This document shows, piece after piece, positions 5,064 to 8,951 of a stretch of 47,372 bases of DNA. Position 1 is the stretch's first letter. Each line of letters begins with the position of its first letter. This stretch comes from Acidimicrobiaceae bacterium (lineage in GTDB: Bacteria > Actinomycetota > Acidimicrobiia > Acidimicrobiales > JAUTXP01): contig JAUTXP010000038.1 in NCBI GenBank assembly GCA_030837965.1, positions 1 to 47,372 of the forward strand, in the 5' to 3' direction. The translations under genes were made by a program, and so were the position numbers. The notes beneath the pieces are model-generated. The model was given only the letters and a program-made list of their open reading frames with translations, searched no databases and had not been told where the DNA came from.

Positions 5064-5872
5064 GTTGGTACTCGGCCGCCGGGCGGCACGACCTGCCGTG
5101 GCGGCGCACCCGCGACCCGTGGGCTGTGCTGGTGAGCGAGCTGATGCTTCAACAGACGCAGGTCCCGCGTGTGTTGGCCATCCACCAAAAGCTGTTGGCC
5201 GCCTTTCCCACGCCCGCCGCATGCGCGGCCGCGCCGGTGGGCGAGGTGGTGCGGGCGTGGGCCGGGCTGGGCTACAACCGACGGGCCGTGAACCTGCATC
5301 GCAGCGCGGTGGCCGTGGTCGAGCGGCATGGCGGGCACTTGCCCGACACGCTCGACGACCTGCTGACCCTGCCCGGCATCGGGCCGTATACCGCGCGGGC
5401 CGTGCTCGCTTTCGCCTTCGAGAAACCGGTGTGCCCGCTGGACGTGAACACCGCCCGTCCTCTGGCTCGGGCGTTCGGGGTTGGCGGGCAAGCGGCAGCC
5501 GACGCACTTGTCCCGGTCGATGACGCGTGGCGGTGGAACCAGGCCTTGATGGACCTGGGCGCGCTGGTCTGCACCCGCCGGGCGCCGTCGTGCGATGTGT
5601 GTCCGCTGGCCGACGTGTGCCGGTGGCGGCTCGGCGGCGGGCCCGACCCGGCCGCGCCCGCGGGCCGGCAGTCGCGCTTCGACGGGTCGGACCGACAAGG
5701 CCGTGGGCGCTTGGTCGACGCGCTGCGCGACGCGCCTGTGGTGGCAGGCGAGTTGGCCGCGGTCATGGGCTGGGCCGACGACCCGGGCCGGGCGGCGCGC
5801 GTCGCAGCCACGCTGGTTGCCGACGGACTGGCCGATCGCCGGGCCGACGGGACGTTCACGCTGCCCGACTGA
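5045..5872 (+). CDS. mutY: A/G-specific adenine glycosylase MutY
   Basis: A base-excision repair glycosylase that removes adenine opposite 8-oxoguanine. From the GTG at 5045 (275 residues), SELMLQQTQV holds Glu32, equivalent to the E. coli catalytic glutamate. LPGIGPYTARAV is the helix-hairpin-helix, and PLDVNTAR holds the catalytic Asp133. Cys176-X6-Cys183-X2-Cys186-X5-Cys192 binds a [4Fe-4S] cluster. A winged-helix-like C-terminal tail replaces the full MutT-like domain of longer MutYs. The first 19 bases overlap the methyltransferase, and the last 17 overlap the convergent gene at 5856. Confidence 0.93.
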   Translation: MHDALLSWYSAAGRHDLPWRRTRDPWAVLVSELMLQQTQVPRVLAIHQKLLAAFPTPAACAAAPVGEVVRAWAGLGYNRRAVNLHRSAVAVVERHGGHLPDTLDDLLTLPGIGPYTARAVLAFAFEKPVCPLDVNTARPLARAFGVGGQAAADALVPVDDAWRWNQALMDLGALVCTRRAPSCDVCPLADVCRWRLGGGPDPAAPAGRQSRFDGSDRQGRGRLVDALRDAPVVAGELAAVMGWADDPGRAARVAATLVADGLADRRADGTFTLPD

Positions 5873-6773
5873 CGGTCAGCAGCACCGCTTTGATCTGGGC
5901 CGCGACCCAGGCGGGTCTGCGCACCACGTCGAGCCAGGTGAAGCGCAGGACGGTCCAGCCCGCGGCCACCAGACGGTTTTGTCGTTCGAGGTCGGCCTGC
6001 ATGGCGGCGGGCGTGGCGTGGACCTCGAACCCGTCGACCTCGATGGCGAGGAGGACGTCGGGATAGGCGAAGTCGACCCGCGCAACCAGACGGCCCCGCA
6101 CCCGGACGTGGTGCTGGAATGCGGGCGCGGGCAGGCCGTGCTCGCGCAGGACTCTGGCCAGGCGCGCTTCGAGCAGCCCCTCAGGCCGGGCCCGCCCGAG
6201 GGCCCGCTCGTCGAGGACCCGGCGGATGACGCCCGCGCCCCGCCTGCCCTTGCGGGCCACGTCGTCCAGCGCCCGCTCGACCGCGGCCACGCTGCACACC
6301 CGGGCAATGAGGGCCCGTTCCAACGCGTCGGCCACCTGCTCGTCGCCCACCACCGCACCCAGGTCGACCAGCGTGCGCATCGGCGTCGTCACCGGGATGC
6401 CAGTCCGGCGCGTGCAGTGCCGACCCACCAAGTCCTTCGACCGATGCACCACCACGCCGTCGGCCCGGGCCCGGCGTTCACGAGGCACCGTGACCTCCAC
6501 TCTGTTGTCGTCGTGCAGGCCCCAGAGATGGGCCGCGCAACGGTGCGACGCCACCCCGTCGCCGGCCAGCACCGCGGCCATGACCTCCTGCTCCCACCGC
6601 CTGGGCGCGCCCCCCACTCGATACACGCCCGCGTGCACCCGCTCCAGGCGGCCGTGCCCGACCCAGTCGTGCAGCACCACGTCGCTCAGGCCCACCCGCA
6701 AGGCCTGCTCCCTGCTCACCAGCCCGTGCTGGCCCCTCGCAATACCTCCCAGCCGCTTCATCGGCCCCGCCAT
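5856..6773 (-). CDS. AbiEi-type N-terminal domain plus DUF559 endonuclease-like domain protein
   Basis: A 305-residue protein. The N-terminus (IARGQHGLVSREQALRVGL, then RLERVHAGVYRVGG) matches the AbiEi antitoxin winged-helix domain. The C-terminus (RVDFAYPDVLLAIEVDGFEVH, then QNRLVAAGWTVLRFTW) matches DUF559, a Vsr/PD-(D/E)XK-like nuclease fold with visible acidic residues and Arg. Such proteins are common in Actinobacteria, usually without a partner toxin, and no AbiEii-like toxin is beside it. AAAGGAG lies 7-8 bp before the ATG at 6773. Its end overlaps mutY convergently by 17 bp. Actual function is unknown. Confidence 0.85.
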   Translation of the reverse strand: MAGPMKRLGGIARGQHGLVSREQALRVGLSDVVLHDWVGHGRLERVHAGVYRVGGAPRRWEQEVMAAVLAGDGVASHRCAAHLWGLHDDNRVEVTVPRERRARADGVVVHRSKDLVGRHCTRRTGIPVTTPMRTLVDLGAVVGDEQVADALERALIARVCSVAAVERALDDVARKGRRGAGVIRRVLDERALGRARPEGLLEARLARVLREHGLPAPAFQHHVRVRGRLVARVDFAYPDVLLAIEVDGFEVHATPAAMQADLERQNRLVAAGWTVLRFTWLDVVRRPAWVAAQIKAVLLTVSRAA

Positions 6774-6849: not shown

Positions 6850-6902
6850 CCGTTCTGGGCACGTTTTCTTGTCACAGAGCGAAGAAAAGGTGCCCAGAAC
6901 GG
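6850..6902. terminator. Dispersed hairpin, family 2, copy 2
   Basis: The arms GTTCTGGGCACGTTTTCTT and AAGAAAAGGTGCCCAGAAC pair with one G-G mismatch, extended by two more outer pairs, around the loop at 6871-6881. This is the second copy of the hairpin at 1871-1917. It lies 110 bases past the end of the minus-strand selenoprotein gene and upstream of the AbiEi/DUF559 gene, so it could terminate the selenoprotein operon. Confidence 0.6.
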
Positions 6903-7014: not shown

Positions 7015-7533
7015 CTAGGGCGGGGGGAGGGTGAGGGCGGCGACGATTTCGTCGATGGCGGCGTCGGCCAGGACCCGCATCTCGGGGTCGGTGCGGTCTT
7101 GGATGGGGTGGGGCACGAACACCGCCGCGGGCGCGAAGCCAATGGCCCGACCTTGCGCGGCGGCCGCATCCACGAACTCGGTGGACGCCACGAACACGCC
7201 CACGACGCCCCGGCCTTCCAAGTCGGCGATGTCGTGCACACTGCACGACGTGCACGAGCCTCAGTCGGCCAAGGCCTCGATCACGACCTCGCAGTTGACG
7301 GCGATCTCGTGGCGCAGGTCGAGCGGCGCGGGCTTGGTGAACGTCGGCTTGGCGTAGCGCCGCACCACCGCGCCCCGCGCCGCCAACAGTTCGGCCAGCC
7401 GGTCCAAGAACACGTCGCCCCGCGGCTTCGAGATGTCCAACAGACCGACCGTCCGCCCGGCCAGAGTCGGCACCCGCGGCGCCAACGGCCGCACGGCCAA
7501 GACCCGCTCGCTGGTCGGGTCCAGCAGCCTCAC
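7015..7533 (-). CDS. UGSC-family selenoprotein with in-frame UGA (Sec)
   Basis: Read through the TGA at 7261-7263, the frame encodes a 172-residue protein: RLLDPTSERV, then GRTVGLLDISKPRGDVFLDRL, then VIEALAD-U-GSCTSCSVHDIADLE, ending FVPHPIQDRTDPEM. The U-G-S-C motif (Sec91, Cys94, then Cys97) is the hallmark of the known 'UGSC' family, in which Sec or Cys occupies the first position. Coding character and family similarity continue on both sides of the UGA, and the frame ends at a TAG at 7015-7017. I chose GTG 7533; in-frame GTGs at 7548 and 7563 lie in a tandem repeat. It is the last gene of a coupled operon. The activity is unknown, presumably redox. A standard gene caller would truncate or miss it. 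Confidence 0.87.
7231..7263 (-). promoter_or_regulatory. Selenocysteine UGA and bacterial SECIS-like hairpin
   Basis: On the minus strand the UGA (7263-7261) is followed after 11 nt by a perfect 8-bp stem, GTCGTGCA/TGCACGAC, with a GTG loop (7241-7239). The apical loop begins 19 nt after the UGA and its first base is G. Both fit the known bacterial SECIS rules of a hairpin just downstream within the coding region and a G among the first loop bases. SelB would bind it to direct Sec insertion. The sel genes are not in this window. Confidence 0.8.
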
Positions 7534-7569
7534 GTCCCCACTCCTCACGTCCCCGCTCCTCACGTCCCT
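7529..7569 (-). repeat. 15-bp tandem repeat carrying SD and GTG starts
   Basis: Read on the minus strand, GACGTGAGGAGCGGG, GACGTGAGGAGTGGG and GACGTGAGGCTGCTG follow one another. Each unit holds an in-frame GTG, and the first two hold AGGAG placed 7 bp before the next GTG. The upstream gene's TGA stop lies inside the first unit (GTGA overlap with the GTG at 7563). The repeat therefore offers three possible translation starts for the selenoprotein gene. Confidence 0.7.
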
Positions 7570-8951
7570 ACCGCCCGGGTCACGGGCATGCTGCCCGCCT
7601 CTCCGTTGACCCAGCCTCCCACCACGGCCGAGAACATGCCCGCGCCGCCGCCCGCATGCACGATCAACAGCCCGTCGTCCCTGAACTTCGGCAACGACGC
7701 GCCGCCGAAGGCTTGGGGCACACCCTCGGCGATGCCGCCCGCGCCCTGCACCAGCTCGGCCCCGTCGAACGTGAGCAGCTCCAACAGTCGCGACCGCAGC
7801 ATCGCCTTCGACCACCCCGCGTCTCTGAACACGCGGGCGTGCTCGGGCGACACGATGAGCACGGCGTCGAAGGCCACCACCAGCTTGGGATGGGCCACAG
7901 CGCGCAGCCCCAAGGCCAGCGACCGGGCCAGCGACTCGGGCTCTCGCGACAACTGGTCGACCACGCCACGCACGCCGTCGGCTGCGAACAACGTCACCGC
8001 TGACGCGCCCGACGCACCCGAACCCACGGCCACACCCCGCTCCGCGGCCAGCGGCTCCCACGGCGAGCCGGCCTCGTCCTCGGCGAAGCAGAACGTGTAC
8101 TTGCCAGGCTGGCCAAGCGTGGCCCTGTCCACCTCGCCCGGCCTACCGCCCCCAACGTTGCGGATCACCAGTTGCAGAGCCCGCCCGATGGTGGCGTTGG
8201 CCCGGTTGCCCTGCCCCAGGCAGTTGACCCCCGAGTTCATCCCGATGCGCGTGGCCACGGGCCCGTTCACGATCACCATGGGCCCGGCGAAGTACGTGGT
8301 GGCCAGCAGCCCGTGGGCGTTGAACTCCGACGTGCATGCGGCCTCCACCGCGGCCAGCACGACCGGCAGGTACTCGGGCTTGCACCCGGCCAGCACGGCG
8401 TTGACCGCCACCTTCTCCACCGTGCACTCGACCAGGTCGGGCGGGACCACGGCGACCACTTCGTCGGCCGCCCGCGTCGTCCCGGCCAGCATCCGCAGCA
8501 CCCGGCCCTCGGTGGGCGCCACCACCGGCAGCCCGTCCGTCCAGCCCCGGTCGAACATGGCCTCGGCCTCATCCTCCAACGCGGCCACGTCCACTCGCCG
8601 GGAGCGCAGGGTCGACGCGCCGAAGCGCACGGCAAGCTGGTCGGCCACCGCGGGCTCCACCGCACGCGACCCGCACCCAGGCCGGTAGTCGGGAAGCTCG
8701 CGGCCCAAGTCCGGCATGTCGAAGAACGACCGCCACGCGTCTCGCGACCACCCGACCATCCGGTCCACCTCGACACCGTCCGAGAACCGCACGACGGTGG
8801 GCACGGTGTCGACGCCGAGCCGAAACGAAGCCACCAGGCCGTCGTCGTCGTCCTCGTCGAGGACGGTGGCGGGCAACGACGACAGGAGCGGGCGGATCAG
8901 CGCGCACGTGGGGCACTCGCCGTTCACGACGACGTAGGCCCCGTCGTTCAT
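7560..8951 (-). CDS. Thioredoxin-fold N-terminal domain plus large conserved domain; partner of the UGSC selenoprotein
   Basis: A 463-residue protein. Residues 1-75 resemble a thioredoxin fold with Cys13-Pro-Thr-Cys16 and a cis-proline-like TVPTVV. The rest is a conserved domain beginning EAMFDRGWTDGLPVVAPTEGRV, with CTVEKVAVNAVLAGCKPEYLPVV, GMNSGVNCLGQGNRANATIGRA and HAGGGAGMFSAVVGGW. I recall this domain in bacterial hypothetical proteins but know no reaction for it. It overlaps the upstream hydrolase by ATGA (8948-8951) and its stop touches the selenoprotein start region. That tight coupling suggests it works with the selenoprotein, perhaps as an electron donor or second redox subunit (inference). 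Confidence 0.8.
   Translation of the reverse strand: MNDGAYVVVNGECPTCALIRPLLSSLPATVLDEDDDDGLVASFRLGVDTVPTVVRFSDGVEVDRMVGWSRDAWRSFFDMPDLGRELPDYRPGCGSRAVEPAVADQLAVRFGASTLRSRRVDVAALEDEAEAMFDRGWTDGLPVVAPTEGRVLRMLAGTTRAADEVVAVVPPDLVECTVEKVAVNAVLAGCKPEYLPVVLAAVEAACTSEFNAHGLLATTYFAGPMVIVNGPVATRIGMNSGVNCLGQGNRANATIGRALQLVIRNVGGGRPGEVDRATLGQPGKYTFCFAEDEAGSPWEPLAAERGVAVGSGASGASAVTLFAADGVRGVVDQLSREPESLARSLALGLRAVAHPKLVVAFDAVLIVSPEHARVFRDAGWSKAMLRSRLLELLTFDGAELVQGAGGIAEGVPQAFGGASLPKFRDDGLLIVHAGGGAGMFSAVVGGWVNGEAGSMPVTRAVGT

Follow-up and report, generated by a model that had tools for sequence, protein, structure and literature searches.

The UGSC-family selenoprotein gene on the minus strand of the window, by which we mean the whole 47,372-nucleotide stretch analysed, has on strong comparative evidence a near-obligate companion, the gene directly upstream of it. 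The two are best explained as a two-gene operon. Judging from motifs and neighbouring genes, the selenocysteine (Sec)-containing UGSC protein and its partner appear to form a thioredoxin-dependent two-component reductase (probability roughly 0.6). The reported UGSC gene is genuine and in no way unusual among its kind; it is the partner, together with the probable Sec form of it found in other genomes, that deserves follow-up. An earlier sequence-only reading of this DNA had reported the UGSC gene and overlooked the upstream gene as its partner, and the novelty lies there.

The UGSC gene occupies positions 7015..7563 (minus strand), as delimited by profile matches and alignment. Ordinary ORF calling terminates its reading frame at 7261, at a TGA codon (7261..7263, minus strand). 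When the sequence is read directly, the frame after this TGA contains no further stop until the TAG at 7017–7015, and with the TGA taken as Sec it is open from any of three in-frame GTG codons (7563, 7548, and 7533) to 7015. The two halves separately match adjacent stretches of PF24696 (profile positions 2–92 and 94–171). The joined frame matches PF24696 over its whole length (E = 2.1e-40, 139.1 bits, cut-off 25) and also matches NF041046 (E = 2.9e-43, 147.4 bits, curated equivalog cut-off 125). The sequence-only reading had held that both halves belong to the known UGSC family and that the family protein is continuous only if the TGA is read as Sec, and these matches bear out both statements. 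Its warning that the gene would be lost or split by ordinary annotation is right insofar as an ordinary ORF caller cuts at the UGA, but NCBI holds the curated model NF041046.

The codon lies in the context EALAD-U-GSCTSC, so that the [U/C]GSC motif is present as UGSCTSC, and in every homologue aligned across the UGA the residue there is Sec or Cys. In a 28-sequence alignment, in which the program prints U as C, the C/U-GSC column is invariant inside an AD-[U/C]-GSC block. Numbered from the start at 7533, the Sec is residue 91. UGSC was described in 2008 by Zhang and Gladyshev (PMC2398784), who placed it among the abundant selenoprotein families of aquatic metagenomes, with bacterial SECIS elements and Sec/Cys exchange. 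By sequence, the window gene is a new member of this long-known family and shows no difference in kind from it (PF24696 / NF041046); within the family it belongs to a UGSCTSC subfamily, the partner of which carries a fused thioredoxin domain. UGSC is present once in the source genome, and a PDB sequence search with it gave no matches.

The exact start of the gene is ambiguous because two tandem 15-nt units, GTGAGGAGYGGGGAC, at 7533–7563 (minus strand) yield the three in-frame GTG codons. The start at 7533, chosen in the sequence-only reading, lines up with the start of some relatives, but the rival GTG at 7563 overlaps the stop of the upstream partner gene in a GTGA sequence (7560..7563, minus strand), and several other relatives have equivalent 4-nt overlaps.

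Two further features lie on the downstream side of the gene. The neighbouring ORF at 5856–6773 (minus strand) has an AbiEi-like N-terminus and a DUF559/MTES_1575 endonuclease-like C-terminus. An intergenic palindromic element, TGGGCACSTTTTCTT-N11-AAGAAAASGTGCCCA, occurs at 6853–6899 and again at 1871–1917; the genome contains 26 copies, in all of which the arms are exactly 11 nt apart and the centre varies, and 0 copies of the reversed pattern.

A hairpin follows the TGA at 7231..7249 (minus strand), with the sequence GTCGTGCA-GTG-TGCACGAC at 7249–7231, or GUCGUGCA-GUG-UGCACGAC as RNA. It has an 8-bp stem and a GUG loop, the first base of which is G, and the distance from the UGA to the loop is exactly 19 nt. 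It thus agrees with the bacterial SECIS rule applied here, which places a G within the first two loop bases and the loop about 16–37 nt downstream of the UGA. The same stem, loop, and spacing had been described in the sequence-only reading; they are seen in the sequence and supported by comparison across homologues. Since about 2% of trials of synonymous recoding with local codon use match or better this hairpin, a single hairpin is only mild evidence for Sec, and hairpin strength alone was rejected as proof. Across homologues, a hairpin of at least six apical pairs stands at the exact place in 37 of 37 distinct Sec sites versus 2 of 47 distinct Cys sites that encode the same motif. At four of the eight stem pairs there are compensatory changes with both sides altered (e.g., UGC/GUG to UGG/GUC); none of 500 shuffles gave covariation as high, and slid controls collapse. 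We regard this comparative evidence as decisive, and the UGA at 7261–7263 is predicted with high confidence to be recoded as selenocysteine.

The source genome, a 3.55-Mb draft in 88 contigs (98% complete, 4% contaminated), encodes all the selenium machinery that the sequence-only reading had suggested looking for. The selA (392.4 bits) and selB (261.8 bits) genes lie side by side on contig 26, selD (334.9 bits) is on contig 45, and the tRNA-Sec gene, selC (65.6 bits), is on contig 30 and is called by ARAGORN as tRNA-SeC with the anticodon TCA. Of 395 genomes from the same class, 139 have UGSC; in most of them the match includes exactly one TGA, and in the others none. At least three genomes of one genus with all-Cys copies of UGSC (G145, G220, and G316) have no tRNA-Sec above the cut-off. 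It is scarcely credible that the UGA truly terminates translation or arose by a disabling mutation, leaving a pseudogene or a truncated protein: ordinary translation does halt there and the source is a draft genome, but the same UGA recurs in most UGSC genes of the roughly 139 related genomes, the half downstream of it is a conserved protein, and the SECIS covariation is joined by a full Sec machinery in the genome. Decoding of the UGA as another amino acid (Trp or Cys) under a variant code would agree with the Cys found at the homologous site in homologues, and it is every bit as remote, given that UGA terminates the neighbouring partner gene (ORF 7560–8951) and many genes of relatives and that a dedicated UCA tRNA-Sec and SelB exist. 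Both readings were rejected on these grounds.

The partner gene (7560..8951, minus strand) encodes 463 amino acids, comprising an N-terminal thioredoxin domain and a conserved domain without a family name. No model in Pfam, NCBIfam, or PHROGs names this domain, and the RefSeq product is 'hypothetical protein' in the annotated records examined. The association with UGSC is close. When the first 31 loci were compared by BLAST, 27 had the partner next to UGSC. Among the 395 genomes of the same class, 133 have both genes, 6 have UGSC only, 3 have the partner only, and 253 have neither (Fisher p = 2e-93; tallied by hand, with partner presence counted at profile matches better than about 1e-50). A Cys-motif scan of named genomes found 49 UGSC loci in Actinomycetota, alphaproteobacteria, and haloarchaea; the partner stands beside UGSC in all 49, and in 24 of them the two form one fused ORF.

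A rare UGSC/Unknown_1 fusion is mentioned in PMC2398784, with no function given at that mention. Our guess is that Unknown_1 is probably the same conserved partner domain. Set against that mention, the arrangement described here is a near-obligate partnership, mostly with a separate gene, rather than a rare fusion; in addition, the partner of this lineage carries a thioredoxin domain, and one family has a probable Sec form of it. The domain also occurs C-terminally in larger 'hypothetical' proteins on plasmids of Sporomusa termitida and Vibrio europaeus (L118 and L119), both of which adjoin aconitase X and DUF126 genes. One partner homologue match (L113, on contig 46 of G277) contains an in-frame TAG.

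The thioredoxin-like domain of the partner covers about residues 1–80 (8712..8951, minus strand) and carries a CPTC motif (C13 and C16). The partner profile matches PDB thioredoxins with a best E of 9e-7, a PDB sequence search returns thioredoxins only, for the first 75 residues, and the domain is predicted with a pLDDT of about 92. The likeness to thioredoxin is limited to this N-terminal part, and many partner homologues lack the fused domain. In the few contexts examined for trxA and trxB, neighbouring genes make up for the missing domain: the gene order is trxB-trxA-partner-UGSC in Arthrobacter sp. ERGS1:01 and partner-UGSC-trxB in Roseovarius sp. THAF8, and in Variovorax sp. SRS16 trxB lies two genes upstream of the partner-UGSC pair. 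At the level of sequence and gene order, the thioredoxin domain and the thioredoxin linkage of the pair may be considered shown or strongly supported. Other common neighbours of the pair are genes for CoA transferases, enoyl-CoA hydratases, acyl-CoA dehydrogenases, SDRs, and solute uptake; the window itself contains, by inspection, acyl-CoA dehydrogenase-like and MaoC-like ORFs.

In some genomes, the partner is probably a selenoprotein in its own right. The window's partner has a cysteine, Cys93, within the sequence RPGCGS (codon 8673..8675, minus strand), and in nine genomes, all of one family, a TGA stands at the homologous codon. The partner profile search found an internal TGA in ten partner genes. 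The nine that were fetched (L103–L111) all come from this one family of the same order, and in each the TGA replaces the Cys of RPGCGS, giving KPG-U-GSL, and beyond it the rest of the sequence is that of an ordinary partner protein. The tenth TGA-containing partner (G076) is without the TGA-for-Cys93 arrangement. Cys occupies this position in the other thioredoxin-fused homologues examined, including the window's own partner, and Cys93 and its surroundings belong to the thioredoxin-fused subfamily only. In the same nine genomes, a Sec-coding UGSC gene adjoins the TGA-containing partner, which would make a two-selenoprotein operon, and tRNA-Sec is found in 9 of 9. A hairpin of 6–8 bp with the loop CGGGC, 20 nt after the UGA, is present in 9 of 9 TGA forms versus 1 of 13 Cys forms. 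The strength of this hairpin alone is weak evidence because the encoded VDPGRVD is palindromic in its codons; a hairpin as strong arises in 4–21% of recoding trials. Sec is the best reading of the TGA on account of the exact Cys position, the tRNA-Sec in all nine genomes, the adjoining Sec UGSC, and the hairpin taken together. In one Cys-form partner (L030), a 10-bp hairpin stands where a SECIS would be; it may be left over from a former Sec codon or may simply reflect the palindromic VDP..RVD codons. A 2026 inventory (PMC13188914), which covers 119 families and subfamilies of prokaryotic selenoproteins, includes UGSC and has no entry recognisable as the partner.

The predicted structure of UGSC consists of five alternating strand-helix units (pLDDT 91) and places the Sec where the helix that follows strand 3 begins. 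The predicted fold is flavodoxin-like or CheY/receiver-like alpha/beta. A thioredoxin fold had been suggested for UGSC in PMC2398784; the predicted strand-helix alternation is unlike the beta-alpha-beta-alpha-beta-beta-alpha order of thioredoxin. The matches listed by Foldseek and VIA-align are receiver-domain, other Rossmann-like, and common alpha/beta folds. The top VIA-align match (Z 12.3, 12% identity) is to a chain of the methyl-coenzyme M reductase activation complex; it ranks barely above the others, and nothing was drawn from it. For the main domain of the partner, Foldseek gave no confident match beyond the thioredoxin part; its resemblance to fumarate hydratase and cyanuric acid hydrolase is weak (TM at most 0.23 over the query).

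The Sec itself is predicted with high confidence to arise through recoding of the UGA at 7261–7263 by SelB, charged tRNA-Sec, and the hairpin at 7231–7249. If the pair is a thioredoxin-dependent reductase, it would work as follows. The Sec of UGSCTSC would attack or reduce a substrate, which is probably bound by the conserved domain of the partner, and the resulting selenenyl-sulfide would be handed on to the adjacent Cys and to the partner's Cys93. It would then be reset by the partner's CPTC thioredoxin domain, for which thioredoxin reductase would be the reductant. Electrons would thus travel from NADPH through thioredoxin reductase, the thioredoxin domain, Cys93 and the Cys of UGSC, and the Sec to the substrate. 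From the gene neighbourhoods, one guess for this substrate is a small organic acid or an acyl-CoA.

Two other functions may be weighed against this scheme. The UxxC motif and the thioredoxin domain would also suit a general thiol oxidoreductase or peroxidase that acts against oxidants and has no dedicated carbon substrate, and most Sec proteins are thiol oxidoreductases (PMC13188914). We consider such a role unlikely, as the architecture is strictly one of two proteins, the partner's domain of 350 residues is conserved, and the pair occurs repeatedly among CoA-linked catabolic genes, all of which suggests a dedicated substrate. The pair could instead be a lyase or a hydrolase in which Sec or Cys serves as a nucleophile or metal ligand and thioredoxin merely keeps the site reduced. 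Two things point in this direction: the weak likeness that Foldseek gave between the partner and fumarate hydratase or cyanuric acid hydrolase, and the catabolic genes nearby, among them those for enoyl-CoA hydratase and amidohydrolase; the fold matches are poor, and the linkage to trxB and trxA better suits a turnover that consumes electrons, which makes this reading more doubtful still.

The reductase proposal gains a parallel from the Sec proteins of glycine reductase (GrdB) and D-proline reductase (PrdB). These share with the UGSCTSC subfamily the UxxCxxC motif, which is written U-GSC-TSC in the latter; other UGSC subfamilies have W, A, or G in place of the last Cys. Further points of likeness are the thioredoxin dependence, which for the UGSC pair is deduced, and a multi-protein arrangement in which a second protein may also contain Sec. 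The grd operons also carry trxB and trxA. The GrdB/PrdB profile PF07355 showed no match to 28 UGSC proteins at E values up to 10 in a search with HMMER, the filters of which drop weak matches. The UGSC pair would work like glycine or proline reductase, a likeness proposed at the level of function. A wider claim can be made tentatively, at somewhat less than even odds: that the pair represents a new and widespread thioredoxin-dependent two-component selenoenzyme of aerobic bacteria and haloarchaea, that this enzyme either converged on glycine/proline reductase or is a distant relative of it, and that its partner is an undescribed selenoprotein family with Sec at PG[C/U]GS.

The partner is named by no annotation pipeline, and in one bacterial family ordinary gene calling would cut its probable Sec form at the UGA; the partner family is worth a curated model. 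UGSC has been known as an abundant selenoprotein of aquatic bacteria since 2008, and the partner, the fusions, the thioredoxin link, and the probable second Sec site provide the first concrete handle on its function: two named proteins that can be expressed together, a likely source of electrons, and a setting among catabolic genes.
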